DNA of 64,000 nt from Promethearchaeota archaeon (GTDB lineage: Archaea > Asgardarchaeota > Lokiarchaeia > Sigyniarchaeales > SOKP01). A model generated the notes under the pieces. That model was not told where the DNA came from, made no database searches, and saw nothing but the letters and a program-made list of their open reading frames with translations. The stretch covers positions 1-64,000 of the forward strand of contig JAEOTP010000007.1 of assembly GCA_016839765.1 (NCBI GenBank), read 5' to 3'. The translations under genes and the position numbers were made by a program. Below, piece by piece: positions 32,902 through 40,183 of the stretch (positions are counted from its first letter, which is position 1; the number at the start of each line of letters is the position of its first letter).

Positions 32902-34182
32902 ATGAGTAAATTCCATTCTGATATCTCAGGTTTTTATAAACTATCCTTAAGAGAACGGCAAAAAACTCTTTCTGAGCTTGTTAATCTTGATGATGAAGAG
33001 GTCAAATTACTTAAAAATTTTGGATATTTCAAAGAGACACAAATTGATACTTTAATTGAAAACGTTGTTGGATCTTATCAATTACCCATTGGGATTGCGT
33101 GTAATTTTAGAATTAATAACAAGGATTACTTGATTCCTATGGTAATAGAGGAACCTTCCGTTGTTGCAGCAGCTTCAAACGCAGCAAGAATTGCTCGAAA
33201 ACATGGAGGATTTTTTTCAGAAAAAGTAGATTCAATTATGATATCTCAAATCCAAATAACCAATCTTACTGATGTTGAACAAGCTAAAAAAATTTTGTTA
33301 GAGAATAAAAAGAATATATTGAAGATTGCTAATGACCAAGATCCAATCTTAGTAAAACTTGGTGGAGGAGCATATGATTTTGAACTCAGAGATATTTATA
33401 CAAGAAAAGGTGTTATGTTAATAATTCATTTATTAGTCAATGTTTTAGATGCTATGGGTGCTAATGTAGTCAATACTATGGCTGAGTCTGTTACGCCTTA
33501 TATCGAGGAGTTATGTGAGGGTAAAGTTAATCTACGAATCGTATCAAATTTAGCCATTCATAGACTGGCAAAATGTAAAGCTAAATTTGACAAAGTCTTA
33601 TTAGGTGGAGAAGAAGTTGTAAAAGGTATAGTTAATGCATATGAATTTGCCCTTGCTGATCCATATCGTGCCACAACTCATAATAAAGGAATAATGAATG
33701 GAATAACTGCTCTAACTTTAGCAACTGGGAATGATACACGAGCTATAGAATCTGGAGCTCATGCTTATGCTTCATTAAAAGGTAATTATTCTCCATTGAC
33801 TAATTTTGAAGTTGATGCAGAAGGAAATTTAATAGGTGAAATTAAGATTCCACTTGCTTTAGGAATTATTGGCGGGATGACAAAATTACATCCAATGGCG
33901 CGATTAAATCTAAAAATTCTAGGTGTAAAATCAGCTGCAGAGTTATCTCAAGTTGCAGCTGCAGTAGGACTAGCTCAAAACGTTGCAGCATTAAGAGCTT
34001 TAGCGGCTGAAGGTATTCAGAGAGGTCATATGGCACTTCATTCTCGTAATATTGCAAAATTAGCTGGAGTGCCTGAGAATCTTATTGATCAAGTAGCAAA
34101 AAAATTAGTTAAAGATAACAAAATTAGGATTGATTATGCTAAAGAAATATTACAAAAAATTATCGATAAGAAAAACCTTTAG
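32902..34182 (+). CDS. Class II (bacterial-type) HMG-CoA reductase
   Basis: It reduces HMG-CoA to mevalonate with NAD(P)H. The 426-residue length and motifs match class II enzymes: ENVVGSYQLPIGIA (about 53-66), the catalytic Glu in EEPSVVAAASNAA (near 88), LAIHRLAKCKAKF with the catalytic lysine (near 220), DPYRATTHNKGIMNG (near 250) and the C-terminal histidine in GHMALHSRN (near 375). Most archaea use class I; class II occurs in some lineages by ancient exchange with bacteria. A GTGAT ribosome-binding site precedes the ATG. It heads a plus-strand run of mevalonate genes. Confidence 0.92.
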   Translation: MSKFHSDISGFYKLSLRERQKTLSELVNLDDEEVKLLKNFGYFKETQIDTLIENVVGSYQLPIGIACNFRINNKDYLIPMVIEEPSVVAAASNAARIARKHGGFFSEKVDSIMISQIQITNLTDVEQAKKILLENKKNILKIANDQDPILVKLGGGAYDFELRDIYTRKGVMLIIHLLVNVLDAMGANVVNTMAESVTPYIEELCEGKVNLRIVSNLAIHRLAKCKAKFDKVLLGGEEVVKGIVNAYEFALADPYRATTHNKGIMNGITALTLATGNDTRAIESGAHAYASLKGNYSPLTNFEVDAEGNLIGEIKIPLALGIIGGMTKLHPMARLNLKILGVKSAAELSQVAAAVGLAQNVAALRALAAEGIQRGHMALHSRNIAKLAGVPENLIDQVAKKLVKDNKIRIDYAKEILQKIIDKKNL

Positions 34183-34263: not shown

Positions 34264-35574
34264 TTGATAAATTTGGGATTTAGACAATATTTAAATAAAA
34301 TTGAAGAAAGCGGACTTCTTAAAAAAATAGATGTTGATGTTTCAAAGAAATTAGAGATTTCAGGTATTTTAAAAGAATTAGAGCCAACCCCCGTATTGTT
34401 TAATAATGTCAATGAATCTGAGTTCCGAGTAGTTGGCAATATGTTTTGTACTAAAAATGTAATTGCTTCATATTTCGGTGTGACTCCAGCAGATCTTATT
34501 CCTATGCTTTCTAAAGCGATTAAAGAAAGAAAAGAACCTGAGGTTATATCAAAGGCCCCCTGCCAAGAAGTAGTCGAATCAAATGTAGATTTAGATAAAG
34601 TTCCAATATTATTCCACTGTGAAAAGGATGGGGGGAATTATATAAGCTCAGCTGTAGTTGTCACTAAGGATCCTGATTATGGGCAAAATTTGGATTTTCA
34701 TAGAGCTATGCAGATTTCTAAAGAAAAATTTACGACTAGAATAGTAAAAGGACGTCACTTTTACAAATTTTTAGAAAAGAATGGTGAATTGGACGTAGCT
34801 TTTTGTATAGGGAATTCTCCAAATATTCTTATTGCTGGAGCTACTTCTGTTGATATTGGGGTAGATGAATTGACAATTGCTAATGCATTAGAACCAATTA
34901 AACTTGTTAAGGCAAATTCTGTTGATTTATTAATTCCTGCAGAAACTGAATTTGTTTTAGAGGGACGAGTATTTTCGGAAGAAAGATATGCTGAGGGACC
35001 TTTTGTTGATTTAACTGAAACATATGATGTAGTGAGAGATGAACCTGTTTTTGAAGTTAAGAAAATCACACATAGAAAAGATGCAATTTGGCAAGCATTA
35101 TTACCAGGTGCCCTAGAGCATAAGATTTTAATGGGAATGCCCCGTGAGCCAACCATTTTTAATAAAGTGAATGAATCAGGCGTAAAATGTCTAGATGTAA
35201 ACATTAATCCGGGAGGATGCTCATGGCTTCATGCCATTGTAAAAATTGACAAGTCTTCAGAAGAGGATGGTAAAAAAGCAATTTATGGCGCTTTTGCTGG
35301 TCATAGTAGCTGTAAACATGTCTTTGTTGTAGATAAAGATATTGATATCTATGACCCATTATCCGTGGAATGGGCAATGGCAACTCGTTTTCAAGGAGAT
35401 TTAAGAATGGTAATTAAAGATAAAGAACCGGGTAGTAGTTTAGATCCAAGTGCTGAACCAGGCACAAAAATGACTACGAAAATTGGCTTTGATTTCACAA
35501 AACCACTTGTTACTAAGGGTAAGAGTTTTGACTTAGCCAAATTTCCTAAAGTTGACATAGATAAATATCTTTAA
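34264..35574 (+). CDS. UbiD-family anhydromevalonate phosphate decarboxylase
   Basis: UbiD-fold decarboxylase of 436 residues (GGNYISSAVVVTKDPDYG near 120; GRVFSEERYAEGPFVDLT with acidic/Arg active-site residues near 235-250; GNMFCTKN near 60). In the archaeal mevalonate pathway this branch converts trans-anhydromevalonate 5-phosphate to isopentenyl phosphate using prenylated FMN. That role rests on context: it sits directly before the two phosphomevalonate dehydratase genes and near ubiX. The TTG at 34264 is the outermost start; a second in-frame TTG at 34273, spaced behind a GTTGAT motif, may be the true one. The stop is three bases before the next open frame. Confidence 0.88.
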   Translation: MINLGFRQYLNKIEESGLLKKIDVDVSKKLEISGILKELEPTPVLFNNVNESEFRVVGNMFCTKNVIASYFGVTPADLIPMLSKAIKERKEPEVISKAPCQEVVESNVDLDKVPILFHCEKDGGNYISSAVVVTKDPDYGQNLDFHRAMQISKEKFTTRIVKGRHFYKFLEKNGELDVAFCIGNSPNILIAGATSVDIGVDELTIANALEPIKLVKANSVDLLIPAETEFVLEGRVFSEERYAEGPFVDLTETYDVVRDEPVFEVKKITHRKDAIWQALLPGALEHKILMGMPREPTIFNKVNESGVKCLDVNINPGGCSWLHAIVKIDKSSEEDGKKAIYGAFAGHSSCKHVFVVDKDIDIYDPLSVEWAMATRFQGDLRMVIKDKEPGSSLDPSAEPGTKMTTKIGFDFTKPLVTKGKSFDLAKFPKVDIDKYL

Positions 35575-35579
35575 TTTTT

Positions 35580-35585
35580 GGAGGT
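35580..35585 (+). promoter_or_regulatory. Strong ribosome-binding site GGAGGT
   Basis: GGAGGT lies seven bases before the ATG at 35593 and only one base before the ATG at 35587, so it favours 35593 as the start of the dehydratase large subunit. Confidence 0.6.
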
Positions 35586-35592
35586 AATGAAA

Positions 35593-36786
35593 ATGAAATT
35601 AACTTCTGAAGATCAAGATATGTTGGATGGTAAATATGGAAAGGCCACCCAAAAATCAATGGAAATTTTAACCATACTTGGTGAAATATTTGAAGCTGAA
35701 GATATGATTGATGTGGTGGGTGTTCAGATCGCAGGTGTGTCCTATGACAATCTTGGAGAAGCAGGATTGGAATTCTTAAGCGAGATGGCAGAAGATGGAA
35801 AGGTTAGAGTCTTAACTACATTAAATCCAGCAGGAATGGATCGTGAAAATTGGCGAGCATTGGGTATTGATGAAGAATTTGCTAAGAATCAAAATCGCGC
35901 TCTCGATGCTTTTGCTAAAATGGGGATAATTACAACCTGTTCTTGTACGCCTTACTTAATTGGTAATACGCCTCATTATGGTCAGCATCTTGCATGGGCT
36001 GAAAGTAGCGCGGTATGTTATGCTAATTCCGTTATTGGTGCTCGAAGTAATCGTGAAGGCGGCCCAAGTGCTCTAGCATCAGCTTTGACCGGAATAACAC
36101 CTAGATATGGGTATCATTTGGATAAAAATCGTCAAGGGGAAGTTTTAATTAAAGTTAACGCTCCAGTTAAAGGAACCGATGAATTTGGAGTTTTAGGAAA
36201 AATAATAGGTGATAAATTAGTTAAATTAGGCAAAAAAATACCATACATAACAGGTATCCCTTCTGCTTCAATTGAAGAACTCAAGTCATTTTGTGCTTCC
36301 GTTGCTACTTATGGTGGAACTGCACTATTCCACATGGAAAGAATAACTCCCGAATTCGATACATACCCTAAACCAAGCGATATCGTTTTTGACATTAATC
36401 AAAGCGATCTAGATAAAGCACGTGCTGAGCTTATAGATGATCATCTTGAAATTGATTTTGTAAGTATTGGCTGTCCTCACGCTTCAATACATGAAATTGC
36501 CACAATTGCAAAATTGTTAAAGGGAAAGAAAGTAAAGAAAGAATTTTGGATAACTACTGCTCGTCCAACCAAGAGAATTGCAGATGAAGTTGGTTATTCT
36601 AAAATAATTGAAATGGCAGGAGCAAAATTTGCAGCAGATACTTGCTGTGTTGTAGCCCCAATTAAAGGACGTTTCAAGGGTATAATGGTTGACTCCGCTA
36701 AAGCATGTTATTATGGTCGTGCAAAGAATAAATTTAAAGTAAAAATAGGAAAAATTGAAGAATGTGTTGAGGAGGCTACAAAATGA
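35593..36786 (+). CDS. Phosphomevalonate dehydratase large subunit (aconitase X type)
   Basis: It dehydrates 5-phosphomevalonate to trans-anhydromevalonate 5-phosphate, together with the small subunit that follows. The 397-residue protein has the AcnX catalytic-domain pattern: GKYGKATQKSMEIL at the N-terminus, VGVQIAGVSYDNLG, candidate iron-sulfur cysteines in TTCSCTPYLIGN (near 115-120), IGCPHASIHE (near 295) and AADTCCVVAP (near 350), and an SNREGGPSALASALTG loop. The start is set by the GGAGGT site. Its stop overlaps the start of the small-subunit gene (ATGA), a sign of coupled translation and a fixed complex. Confidence 0.9.
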   Translation: MKLTSEDQDMLDGKYGKATQKSMEILTILGEIFEAEDMIDVVGVQIAGVSYDNLGEAGLEFLSEMAEDGKVRVLTTLNPAGMDRENWRALGIDEEFAKNQNRALDAFAKMGIITTCSCTPYLIGNTPHYGQHLAWAESSAVCYANSVIGARSNREGGPSALASALTGITPRYGYHLDKNRQGEVLIKVNAPVKGTDEFGVLGKIIGDKLVKLGKKIPYITGIPSASIEELKSFCASVATYGGTALFHMERITPEFDTYPKPSDIVFDINQSDLDKARAELIDDHLEIDFVSIGCPHASIHEIATIAKLLKGKKVKKEFWITTARPTKRIADEVGYSKIIEMAGAKFAADTCCVVAPIKGRFKGIMVDSAKACYYGRAKNKFKVKIGKIEECVEEATK

Positions 36787-37175
36787 AGCTAAATGGAAGA
36801 AAAATATATAAGGGGAAAACTAAAGGAAAAACAATAGTCACCAAAGACGGAATTTCGTTTTATGGAGGCATAGATCCCGATACTGGAATAGTTGTGGAAG
36901 TTGGACATGAATTAGAAGGCCAATCTGTTTCTGGTAAAATATTAGTATTTCCAACTGGAAAAGGTTCTACTGTGGGGTCTTATACTATGTATCGAATGAA
37001 GAAGAATAATACAGCTCCTCTAGCTATAATTAACGAAAAGATCGATACGATCATTGCAGTGGGATGTATAATAAGCGAAATTCCATGCGTGGATATGATC
37101 GATATTAACTTAATAAAAAATGAACAGGAAGTTGTTGTCAATGGTTCTGAAGGAACTGTTGAAATTATAGATTAA
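36783..37175 (+). CDS. Phosphomevalonate dehydratase small subunit
   Basis: The 130-residue swivelling-domain subunit of the AcnX-type dehydratase is recognisable from GKILVFPTGKGSTVGSYTMY (about 58-77), which holds the conserved serine region, and APLAIINEKIDTIIAVGCII. Usual length is about 130-140 residues. It overlaps the large-subunit gene by four bases. After it comes an A-run/T-run stretch (37178-37203) that may cause partial termination before the mevalonate kinase gene. Confidence 0.9.
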   Translation: MKLNGRKIYKGKTKGKTIVTKDGISFYGGIDPDTGIVVEVGHELEGQSVSGKILVFPTGKGSTVGSYTMYRMKKNNTAPLAIINEKIDTIIAVGCIISEIPCVDMIDINLIKNEQEVVVNGSEGTVEIID

Positions 37176-37254: not shown

Positions 37255-38221
37255 TTGGGAACTGGAAAAGGGTATGGAAAGACTATTCTTTTTGGCGAAT
37301 TTTTCCTCCCAATTCGGGAATAAACGCTAACATTTTGTAGTTTATGGTCTTCCAGCAATCGCATCCGCTATCGGTTCTAAGACAATCGCTACTGTTAAAG
37401 CAGTCAATGGCGAAGGATGGACAGTAGATGACCAACGAATAGCAACACCAGGTTATAAGGATAAAAAATTTAAAGAGGCCCAACAAGCTATTATTAACGT
37501 TATTAAATACTTAAATATTGATATTATTAATAATAAACTTGAGATTACTTTTACAGGAGATTTAGTAGCAGCAAGTGGAGTGGGAGCTTCTGCAGCTCAA
37601 TGTACTTCTCTTGCTCGTGCACTCAGTGAGGAATTTAATCTTAATTTAGATGATGAAAAAATAAATGAAGCTGCTTATTCAGGTGAAATGGCATACCATG
37701 GAACTCCATCTGGCATCGATAATACCGCATCCACATATGGAGGATTAATTTGGTTTGTGAAAAGTTTAAGTGGAGGAAAAAACACCATTGATCGTCTCAA
37801 ATCTGCCGAAAAAATGCATTTAATTATAGCAAATACGGGCATAACTGCTTCTACTGCTGAGGTTGTTGCAGATGTTCGTAAATTGAGAGAAGAGAATCCA
37901 GAAAAGTTTAATAAAATATTCAATAAATATGAAAAAATCGCAAAAAATGCAAAAAATGCATTAATTAAAGGCGATAGGGATTCTGTTGGAAAATTAATGA
38001 ATCAAAATCATAAATTATTACAATTAATATCAGTTTCATCTGAGATTAATGACAAAATTGTCGATATTGCCTTAAATAATGGAGCAATAGGAGCAAAAAT
38101 GACTGGGACTGGTCGAGGGGGATTAGTAATAGCTTTAACCTTAGATGAAAATAATCAAAAAAGTGTTTCTGCTACTATCGAGAAGGAGGGTTTTTCAACA
38201 TGGAAAACAACTATTGGTTAA
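37255..38221 (+). CDS. mvk: Mevalonate kinase, interrupted by a 31-nt putative intron
   Basis: GHMP-family kinase making 5-phosphomevalonate. The uninterrupted frame only covers 37580-38221 (from the GTG in the ATP-binding loop), but the reading frame is legible from 37331 (HFVVYGLPAIASAIG) onward, and a 15-codon first exon runs from the TTG at 37255 to 37299 (MGTGKGYGKTILFGE). Joining 37299 to 37331 gives the classic ILFGEHFVVYGLPAIA motif, then the GDLVAASGVGASAAQ ATP loop, HGTPSGIDNTAS with the catalytic Asp, and MTGTGRGGLVIAL. The spliced product has 311 residues (936 nt with stop, divisible by three), the usual length. Unspliced, the mRNA meets TAA at 37328. A degraded gene is the alternative, but no other damage is visible. 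Confidence 0.85.
37300..37330 (+). other. Putative 31-nt BHB-type archaeal intron in mevalonate kinase
   Basis: This insertion falls exactly between codons GAA and CAT of the conserved FGEH motif. G294-G297 (GGCG) can pair with C325-T328 (CGCT, one G·U) as a four-base-pair central helix. It is followed on each strand by a three-base bulge, A298-A299-T300 and A329-A330-C331. Cutting between the second and third base of each bulge, where tRNA-splicing endonuclease cuts, removes exactly 37300-37330. On the intron side TTT (301-303) pairs with AAA (322-324) and TCCC (307-310) with GGGA (316-319). (Numbers without prefix are last three digits after 37.) The exon-side helix is weak, so it would be a relaxed motif. 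Confidence 0.7.
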
Positions 38222-38290: not shown

Positions 38291-40183
38291 GTGAAGAGAG
38301 ACAATACAATATACTTATTAAAATTAGGCGGTAGTTTACTAACTGATAAAAACGAACCTTCTTCATTAAGGGAAGATGTTATAAACAGAGCTATTGAACA
38401 GATTATAGAAAGTAATAAAAGAGTTGTTTTGATTCATGGCGGAGGTTCATTTGGTCACCCTATTGCAAAAAAATATCAATTATTTAAAGGATTAAACACA
38501 TCTATTAAAAATCAAGTATTAGGGCTTTCTAAAACTCATGAAATGATGAATCAACTTAATACAATAATAATAAACAAATTTTTAAAGAAGAATTACCCAG
38601 TTTTATCTATTTCACCTTCAGCAATATTTATTAAAAGATCTCAACAGTTTATACTTAATTCCATTGATCCAATTGAAATTTCATTGAAATTAGGGGTTTT
38701 ACCAATCCTCTATGGAGATATCATCCTAGAAAAAGATGGTTCCTTCTCAATAATATCTGGAGATGACATAATTTTAGAATTATGTAAGACCTTGAAGAAT
38801 TTTGAAATTGTTAAGGTTATTTTTGCTATTGAGAAAGACGGGATTTATGTAAAAGACGGAGATAGTATTGAATTTGCTTCACAAATTAATTTTGATGAAT
38901 TAAAAAGTGTAGAATTAGCTGATTTAGAGCATAAAATAGATGTGACCGGAGGAATTGGAAGAAAATTTGAAATTATAAAACAAATTGCTGAATTAAATAT
39001 TCCTGTTCAAGTTATTAATGGCTTAAAAAAAAATTATATCTTAAAATCTTTAAAAAACCAAAAGCTAGATTGCACAAATATTAGCTTATCTAAGGAAAAA
39101 GATGATATTCAAGCAATTCATACCAGAAAATTAGAACATTTAACAATCCCATTAGATTATAATGTACAATCCACTAAAAATTATTTTGACGAAATTATAT
39201 TAATACATCATCCATTACCTGAAATAGAATTACATGATGTTGAATTAGGAACCCAATTTTTCAATAAAAGTGTTTCCGCTCCTATTTGTATTGCAGCTAT
39301 AACTGGTGGCCATCCAATATCTAAAAAAATTAATAAAATATTAGCAGAAGCTGCTGAATCAGAAAATATAATAATGAGTGTTGGAAGTCAACGTATAGCA
39401 TTAGAGGATCAAACCGCTGTTGAATCCTTTCAAATCGTTCGAGAATGCGCTCCAAATATTCCTATTATTGGAAATCTTGGAATAGGACAAATAAGTTCTA
39501 ATGATTTTCAATTAGAAGAATTTCAAAAATGCATTGAAATGATAAATGCTGATATTATGGCAATTCATTTCAATGCTCTCCATGAATTAGTACAAAAAGA
39601 TGGTAATATTTATTATACAGCTTTTTCTGATAACTTTAAAACAGTAAGGGAAAGGTTTAAGATTCCCATAATTGCTAAAGAAGTTGGAACAGGCTTTAAC
39701 CGTGATCTAGCCTTACAGCTTGACCTTTTGGGTTTTGATGGATTTGACGTAGGAGGAATGGGAGGCACAAATTTTACTAGTATAGAATCAATTAGAGATA
39801 ATGATAATAATGAAAATTATACAAGAAAACTTGCTGATACACTAAAAAATTGGGGGATACCAACTCCAATTAGTATTTTAAATGTCAGAAGTACATCAAA
39901 AAAGCCTATCATTGCAACGGGAGGGTTAAGGACGGGACTTGATATTGCAAAAAGTATAGTTTTAGGAGCGGATATAGGAGGTTTTGCCTACAAATTCCTT
40001 AAATCTGCTTGGAAAGATTATAAACAAGAAACAATAACCAATACAATAAATGAAATTCGAACATTAAAACACGAATTACTGTCAGTAATGTGGTTATTAA
40101 ATATAGATAAAATTGAAAATCTTAAAAGTAAAAGAGAAAAAAGTATCCTCTTAGGAGATATGTATAAATGGGCTAACCAATAA
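38291..40183 (+). CDS. Isopentenyl phosphate kinase–type 2 IPP isomerase fusion
   Basis: A 630-residue bifunctional enzyme joins the last two steps of the archaeal pathway. Residues 1 to about 262 are an amino-acid-kinase-fold isopentenyl phosphate kinase: LLKLGGSLLTDK (9-20), HGGGSFGHPIAKKY with the signature histidines (near 50-63), SGDDIILEL and DVTGGIGRKFE. Residues about 275-630 are a type 2 (FMN-dependent) IPP isomerase: TRKLEHL, SVSAPICIAAITGGH, VGSQRIALED, IIAKEVGTG, DVGGMGGTNF and ATGGLRTGLDIAKSI. The usual HLNxLQExxQPEGD motif reads HFNALHELVQKDGN here. The start is GTG at 38291. The fusion delivers IPP straight to isomerisation to DMAPP. Confidence 0.9.
   Translation: MKRDNTIYLLKLGGSLLTDKNEPSSLREDVINRAIEQIIESNKRVVLIHGGGSFGHPIAKKYQLFKGLNTSIKNQVLGLSKTHEMMNQLNTIIINKFLKKNYPVLSISPSAIFIKRSQQFILNSIDPIEISLKLGVLPILYGDIILEKDGSFSIISGDDIILELCKTLKNFEIVKVIFAIEKDGIYVKDGDSIEFASQINFDELKSVELADLEHKIDVTGGIGRKFEIIKQIAELNIPVQVINGLKKNYILKSLKNQKLDCTNISLSKEKDDIQAIHTRKLEHLTIPLDYNVQSTKNYFDEIILIHHPLPEIELHDVELGTQFFNKSVSAPICIAAITGGHPISKKINKILAEAAESENIIMSVGSQRIALEDQTAVESFQIVRECAPNIPIIGNLGIGQISSNDFQLEEFQKCIEMINADIMAIHFNALHELVQKDGNIYYTAFSDNFKTVRERFKIPIIAKEVGTGFNRDLALQLDLLGFDGFDVGGMGGTNFTSIESIRDNDNNENYTRKLADTLKNWGIPTPISILNVRSTSKKPIIATGGLRTGLDIAKSIVLGADIGGFAYKFLKSAWKDYKQETITNTINEIRTLKHELLSVMWLLNIDKIENLKSKREKSILLGDMYKWANQ

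Follow-up and report, generated by a model that had tools for sequence, protein, structure and literature searches.

The mvk locus and its interruption

The window, the whole 64-kb stretch of DNA analyzed here, is part of contig C96 of a lokiarchaeal host genome of 3.32 Mb in 96 contigs. It carries a same-strand cluster of mevalonate-pathway genes that runs from HMG-CoA reductase to a fusion of isopentenyl phosphate kinase and type 2 IPP isomerase (IPK–IDI2). The sole mevalonate-kinase gene (mvk) of the host genome is split at 37300–37330 by 31 nt, TTTTTCCTCCCAATTCGGGAATAAACGCTAA. The genes of the cluster are as follows:

32902–34182, plus strand: HMG-CoA reductase (TIGR00532, 473.9 bits)
34264–35574, plus strand: UbiD-family decarboxylase (TIGR00148)
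35578–37175, plus strand: AcnX-type dehydratase, large subunit 35578–36786 and small subunit 36783–37175 (NF051439 and NF003046 matches)
37255–37299, plus strand: mvk exon 1, 15 codons with a TTG start, MGTGKGYGKTILFGE; the same motif is unbroken in intronless relatives
37300–37330, plus strand: predicted 31-nt intron (reading frames and same-site insert in 25 genomes)
37331–38221, plus strand: mvk exon 2, 296 codons plus stop; HFVVYGLPAIA from 37331, in a frame different from that of exon 1
38291–40183, plus strand: isopentenyl phosphate kinase fused to type 2 IPP isomerase (NF040647 at residues 9–264, TIGR02151 at 278–614)
Peptide of the joined MVK product: GYGKTILFGEHFVVYG

The UbiD-family gene is probably the archaeal-type MVA decarboxylase, as judged by its neighborhood, and the AcnX-type dehydratase may likewise serve the mevalonate pathway. 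The IPK–IDI2 fusion is one protein of 630 aa just 3' of mvk.

Exon 1 is preceded directly by AGGTGA, which resembles a ribosome-binding site, and its translation from TTG 37255 up to 37299 is LGTGKGYGKTILFGE. The insert holds a stop in each of the two frames: TAA 37321–37323 in the frame of exon 1 and TAA 37328–37330 in the frame of exon 2, the latter immediately 5' of CAT. Hence, no full-length kinase can come from either frame or from one shift between them. A sequence-only reading of this DNA had expected the unspliced message to stop after about 24 codons; the early stop is real, but it falls after 22. Removal of the insert restores GKTILFGE/HFVVYG (slash, junction) and a 311-codon frame plus stop (38221). 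The interruption, the resumption at 37331, the phase at a codon boundary, and the 311-residue product had all been placed right to the base by that reading. Since exon 1 and the intron both end in AA, the junction itself can be shifted by as much as 2 nt. Against the mevalonate-kinase model TIGR00549 (cut-off 163), the joined protein scores 238 bits over residues 8–284, compared with 218.8 bits for exon 2 alone, and the junction-spanning motif GYGKxILFGEHFVV aligns without a break to solved mevalonate kinases. The lokiarchaeal MVK scores 246.6 bits against the putative mevalonate kinase 2hfs, which we take to be the Leishmania enzyme; the other solved MVKs lie far below, among them 1kkh at 88.4 bits, presumably the Methanocaldococcus enzyme. 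The only further mvk match in the host genome is a GHMP relative at 26%. Group I and group II introns carry a catalytic core and are far longer than 31 nt; a self-splicing intron of either type is ruled out by the length of the insert and by the lack of an Rfam match in the window. No RNA genes were found by ARAGORN and Rfam in the 64-kb window.

Same-site inserts among relatives

The mvk orthologues were surveyed in the genomes of 117 relatives and are of two kinds: those with an unbroken match from residue 1 and those with a match starting at residue 15 or 16. The DNA of the latter carries an insert at the identical codon boundary. Alignment with related Asgard mvk, as the sequence-only reading had suggested, gives 25 distinct genomes of one family with the insert—24 distinct genes and G003, in which exon 1 and the intron are located at the end of a contig—and about 20 intronless orthologues with the same protein motif and the restored frame. 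The distant orthologues (Thorarchaeota, Hodarchaeota, and others) do not feature the insert. It has a length of 31 nt in 24 genomes and of 28 nt in one (L073). All 25 insert sequences differ, and the 31-mers have a mean pairwise identity of 0.71 with a minimum of 0.45.

The source genomes are mostly MAGs, so that an assembly artefact or a pseudogene might be considered; the probability of this is close to nil. The insert recurs in 25 differing genomes that stem from separate projects, one of them the single-contig 3.34-Mb genome G053, which excludes assembly error and recent decay. Exon 2 is conserved over 296 codons at 66–93% identity, and there is one close mvk per genome. The assembly error and the decaying second mvk copy, both raised as objections in the sequence-only reading, are thereby excluded.

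A second alternative takes the insert as coding sequence in another frame: translation would begin within exon 1, in the frame of exon 2, and yield a kinase with an altered N-terminus, in contrast to the peptide GKTILFGEHFVVYG of the joined product. The insert length is indeed 1 mod 3 throughout, 17 of the 25 sequences have no stop in the exon-2 frame across the insert, mostly with an ATG 19 codons 5' of HFVVYG, and the normal start reads ACG in seven relatives. However, eight of the 25, the host genome among them, have a stop in that frame inside the insert, L047 and L063 lack that ATG, and in 25/25 exon 1 still encodes the MVK motif in frame while varying by synonymous changes. This reading is, hence, very improbable.

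The protein tree is resolved in part; on it, the intron label must change nine times or more, with five of these changes forced by well-supported branches, and both deepest lokiarchaeal branches carry the intron. The simplest reading of these sequences would be one gain before the family diversified, followed by repeated clean losses; transfer of mvk alleles between lineages may be an alternative to gain and loss. A feature of the family that speaks against the intron reading is the ACG at the start position of mvk in seven of the 25 (L024, L027, L030, L031, L047, L048, and L050), in place of ATG, TTG, or GTG. It is found in two separate clades of the tree and is in most cases preceded by a strong GGAGGTGA site, and the stop of the upstream gene closes the exon-1 frame just 5' of it.

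A covariance model of the intron yields one match per intron-bearing genome, always in mvk, and none elsewhere in the 117 genomes. Weak matches in G015, G060, G040, and G010 (E 0.06–1) look like noncoding or chance matches and involve no split gene. A comparison of 800 kb each from G053 and G054, together with the window, yielded about 320 gene pairs and no second such insert; it covers a small share of the gene set and detects mainly inserts differing between the compared genomes. The other candidates it raised were upstream noncoding frames, one frameshift at a C-terminus, and a TGA of the selenocysteine type within a reading frame. The latter, in contig C1 of G054 at about 1690949 (minus strand), lies within FLCWK*GYGAGDMAGT, is probably a selenocysteine codon, and belongs to what is presumably a hydrogenase/heterodisulfide-reductase subunit. 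The cbf5 gene of the host genome is uninterrupted.

Bulge-helix-bulge features and conservation of the RNA

In its canonical form, the archaeal bulge-helix-bulge (BHB) motif has a central helix of 4 bp, and both strands bulge by 3 nt where exon and intron meet; relaxed forms are allowed. Around the mvk junction, the following elements are recognized:

37276–37286, plus strand: outer exon–exon helix, exon-1 strand GGAAAGACTAT; pairs with 37344–37353
37294–37297, plus strand: central helix, 5' strand GGCG; pairs with 37325–37328, compensatory GGTG/CACT in L066
37298–37300, plus strand: 5' bulge AAT, predicted cut after 37299 (position; AA(A/T/G) in 25/25)
37301–37324, plus strand: inner hairpin (fold; e.g., UCCC 37307–37310 with GGGA 37316–37319)
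37325–37328, plus strand: central helix, 3' strand CGCT (fold and covariation)
37329–37331, plus strand: 3' bulge AAC, predicted cut after 37330 (position; A(A/T)C in 25/25)
37344–37353, plus strand: outer exon–exon helix, exon-2 strand ATGGTCTTCC; pairs with 37276–37286

The central helix of the window genome consists of a G–U and three Watson–Crick pairs, and the bulges are AAU and AAC. The GGCG/CGCT helix, the three-base bulges, and the cut sites at both borders named by the sequence-only reading are borne out in their positions, one pair being G–U. Farther out, the two exons pair with each other over the intron (GGAAAGACCAT/ATGGTCTTCC); in the pre-mRNA, this outer helix would be GGAAAGACUAU/AUGGUCUUCC. 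No helix lies directly outside the 3' bulge since an internal loop separates the outer helix from it, and the motif is, hence, relaxed rather than canonical. The central helix of the relatives is relaxed as well: Its three inner pairs are present in 24/24, and the outermost pair is G–U or G–C in seven and mismatched (G–A) in the other 17. Cutting between bulge bases 2 and 3 gives the exact exon borders and restores the MVK motif in 25/25. Exon 1 ends in GG(C/U)GAA in all 25 sequences, and the intron ends in CGCAAU, CGCUAU, CGCAAA, CGCUAA, CGUUAA, CACUAU, or CGUCAA, followed by CA(U/C). The inner hairpin has up to nine pairs in relatives and covaries. The minimum-energy folds of several relatives favor alternative pairing by 0.4–3 kcal/mol, which, like the mismatched outermost pair, tells against the BHB reading.

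Six pairs change on both sides, one of them in the central helix, where L066 replaces C–G by U–A with both strands changed. In alignment A1, 88.1% of the cells are paired under the structure described, compared with 35–49% in slid controls; these are pair counts from related sequences, but the slid controls retain the kinship and still remain much lower. Cells changed on both sides number 19 compared with 7.5 in shuffles, and the covariation score is 0.180 compared with 0.116, a value of 0.180 being reached by 0/500 shuffles—a comparison inflated by the kinship of the sequences. Alignment A2 repeats this result. As judged from these alignments, an insert at one site with a covarying structure in 25 genomes is far beyond chance.

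The exons take part in this conservation. The outer helix, laid out across relatives as GGAA-GACYAU with AUGGUC-UUCC, has all six pairs of its core GACYAT/ATGGTC in 20/24 intron-bearing genes compared with 1/17 intronless ones. The single intronless gene with the full helix is L025 (G035), which has a longer N-terminus; since it keeps the intron-type exon spelling (GACCAT...ATGGTC) without the intron, it is likely the footprint of a recent precise intron loss. In intron-bearing genes, the codon identity at synonymous sites reaches 0.753 over the eight codons on either side of the junction, compared with 0.573 elsewhere in the gene, and no other 16-codon window of mvk is conserved as strongly. 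In the intronless genes, the same stretch lies below average, with 0.435 compared with 0.532 elsewhere. This synonymous constraint is confined to intron-bearing mvk; the RNA, and not the protein alone, is under conservation near the junction.

These features also bear on translational recoding, in which the ribosome would bypass or frameshift across the 31 nt and splicing would be unnecessary. Recoding of this kind is known for short interruptions, the insert folds into a hairpin, and the cbf5 introns themselves were once mistaken for frameshifting (PMC2738675). Simple frameshifting is ruled out by the frames, since that of exon 1 stops at 37321 and that of exon 2 opens only past TAA 37328–37330. 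Bypassing needs matching codons, but the take-off codon is GAA and the landing codon TAA, TAT, AAT, AAA, or CAA. Furthermore, recoding predicts neither the conserved positions of the BHB bulges nor the exon–exon helix, which makes it highly unlikely.

Predicted splicing and comparison with known systems

The host genome encodes two EndA proteins, C72 (alpha) and C82 (beta), and the ligase RtcB (C25). EndA C72 keeps the active-site Tyr, His, and Lys, and its best PDB match is the catalytic chain of the (alpha-beta)2 enzyme of A. pernix. Its NKPR aligns to EKPR of that enzyme, that is, to K44-P45-R46 of the crenarchaea-specific loop (CSL). An (alpha-beta)2 EndA with this loop cuts relaxed BHBs (PMC6379350). 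EndA C82 is without the catalytic His and fits the structural subunit; both chains probably form one heteromeric enzyme. Several tRNA model matches span 100–152 nt, compatible with tRNA introns; ARAGORN gave no confirmation of these.

It is, hence, predicted with high confidence that the 31-nt insert is a BHB-type intron of a protein-coding gene, spliced by EndA and RtcB, because same-site inserts, covariation, exon–exon pairing, synonymous constraint, intronless orthologues, the lack of a second mvk, and the EndA and RtcB genes all point to it. The BHB-like intron in an Asgard mvk proposed by the sequence-only reading is, thus, backed by relatives and by the machinery of the host. In the pre-mRNA, GGCG at the end of exon 1 would pair with CGCU at the end of the intron, with 3-nt bulges on either side; the hairpin of the intron would lie inside this central helix and the exon–exon helix GGAAAGACUAU/AUGGUCUUCC beyond it. 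EndA, as a heteromeric (alpha-beta)2 enzyme, would cut past bulge base 2 on each side (37299 and 37330) and free the 31-mer, and RtcB would join the halves to FGE/HFVVYG and, thereby, to an active mevalonate kinase; cutting and ligation in the cell are predictions. In tRNA splicing, the folded tRNA body holds the exons for ligation. The outer helix plausibly tethers both mRNA halves in a similar manner, which would account for its being kept nearly only together with the intron. It is conceivable, albeit unlikely, that intron and exon–exon helix form a regulated splice switch by which EndA and RtcB set the mevalonate-kinase output and, hence, the isoprenoid-lipid output of the mevalonate cluster. 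Such a switch, if true, would explain the retention of the intron with constrained structure in many lineages despite apparently frequent clean loss.

By its features, the mvk intron is a BHB intron of a relaxed subtype with predicted excision. It would be the second archaeal coding sequence with a BHB intron after cbf5, in the phylum nearest to eukaryotes and shared by about 25 species. A paper of 2020 names cbf5 as the sole further reported BHB intron in archaeal mRNA beside its own 5'-UTR case (PMC7714728), and BHB introns in further archaeal genes are predictions only. No report of an Asgard BHB intron or of an mvk intron was found in the literature searched, which included few preprints or subscription papers. 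The alignment of 25 introns, beside about 20 orthologues cleanly lacking one, suggests that mRNA splicing of the tRNA type has arisen anew outside Crenarchaeota, once more together with a heteromeric endonuclease that has a KPR loop. The mvk intron is a testable system for the gain, upkeep, and loss of such introns, and gene catalogues of Asgard archaea may truncate mvk.

The intron of crenarchaeal cbf5 pre-mRNA has a length of 16–44 nt and an unconventional BHB and is processed by a hetero-oligomeric EndA (Watanabe 2002; Yokobori 2009, PMC2738675). The claim of the sequence-only reading that the mvk intron is one of the shortest of its kind does not hold, since 31 nt is mid-range in comparison (PMC2738675). 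Both introns are short, lie within a highly conserved motif of a housekeeping gene, are cut (in mvk, by prediction) between bulge bases 2 and 3, and show losses among relatives. They differ in gene, phylum (Asgard, Lokiarchaeia), and position; in addition, the mvk intron has an outer exon–exon helix that is set apart and a nearly constant length of 31 nt, and its splicing is a prediction from the DNA. The mRNA of Haloferax HVO_1309 is likewise processed by the splicing endonuclease at BHB sites, but its intron lies in the 5' UTR and not in the coding frame (PMC7714728). The relaxed BHB introns of archaeal pre-tRNAs (hBH, HBh') share the same bulge-helix-bulge logic and probably the same enzymes with the mvk intron; the latter, however, has no tRNA body, which the exon–exon helix of the mRNA seems to replace.
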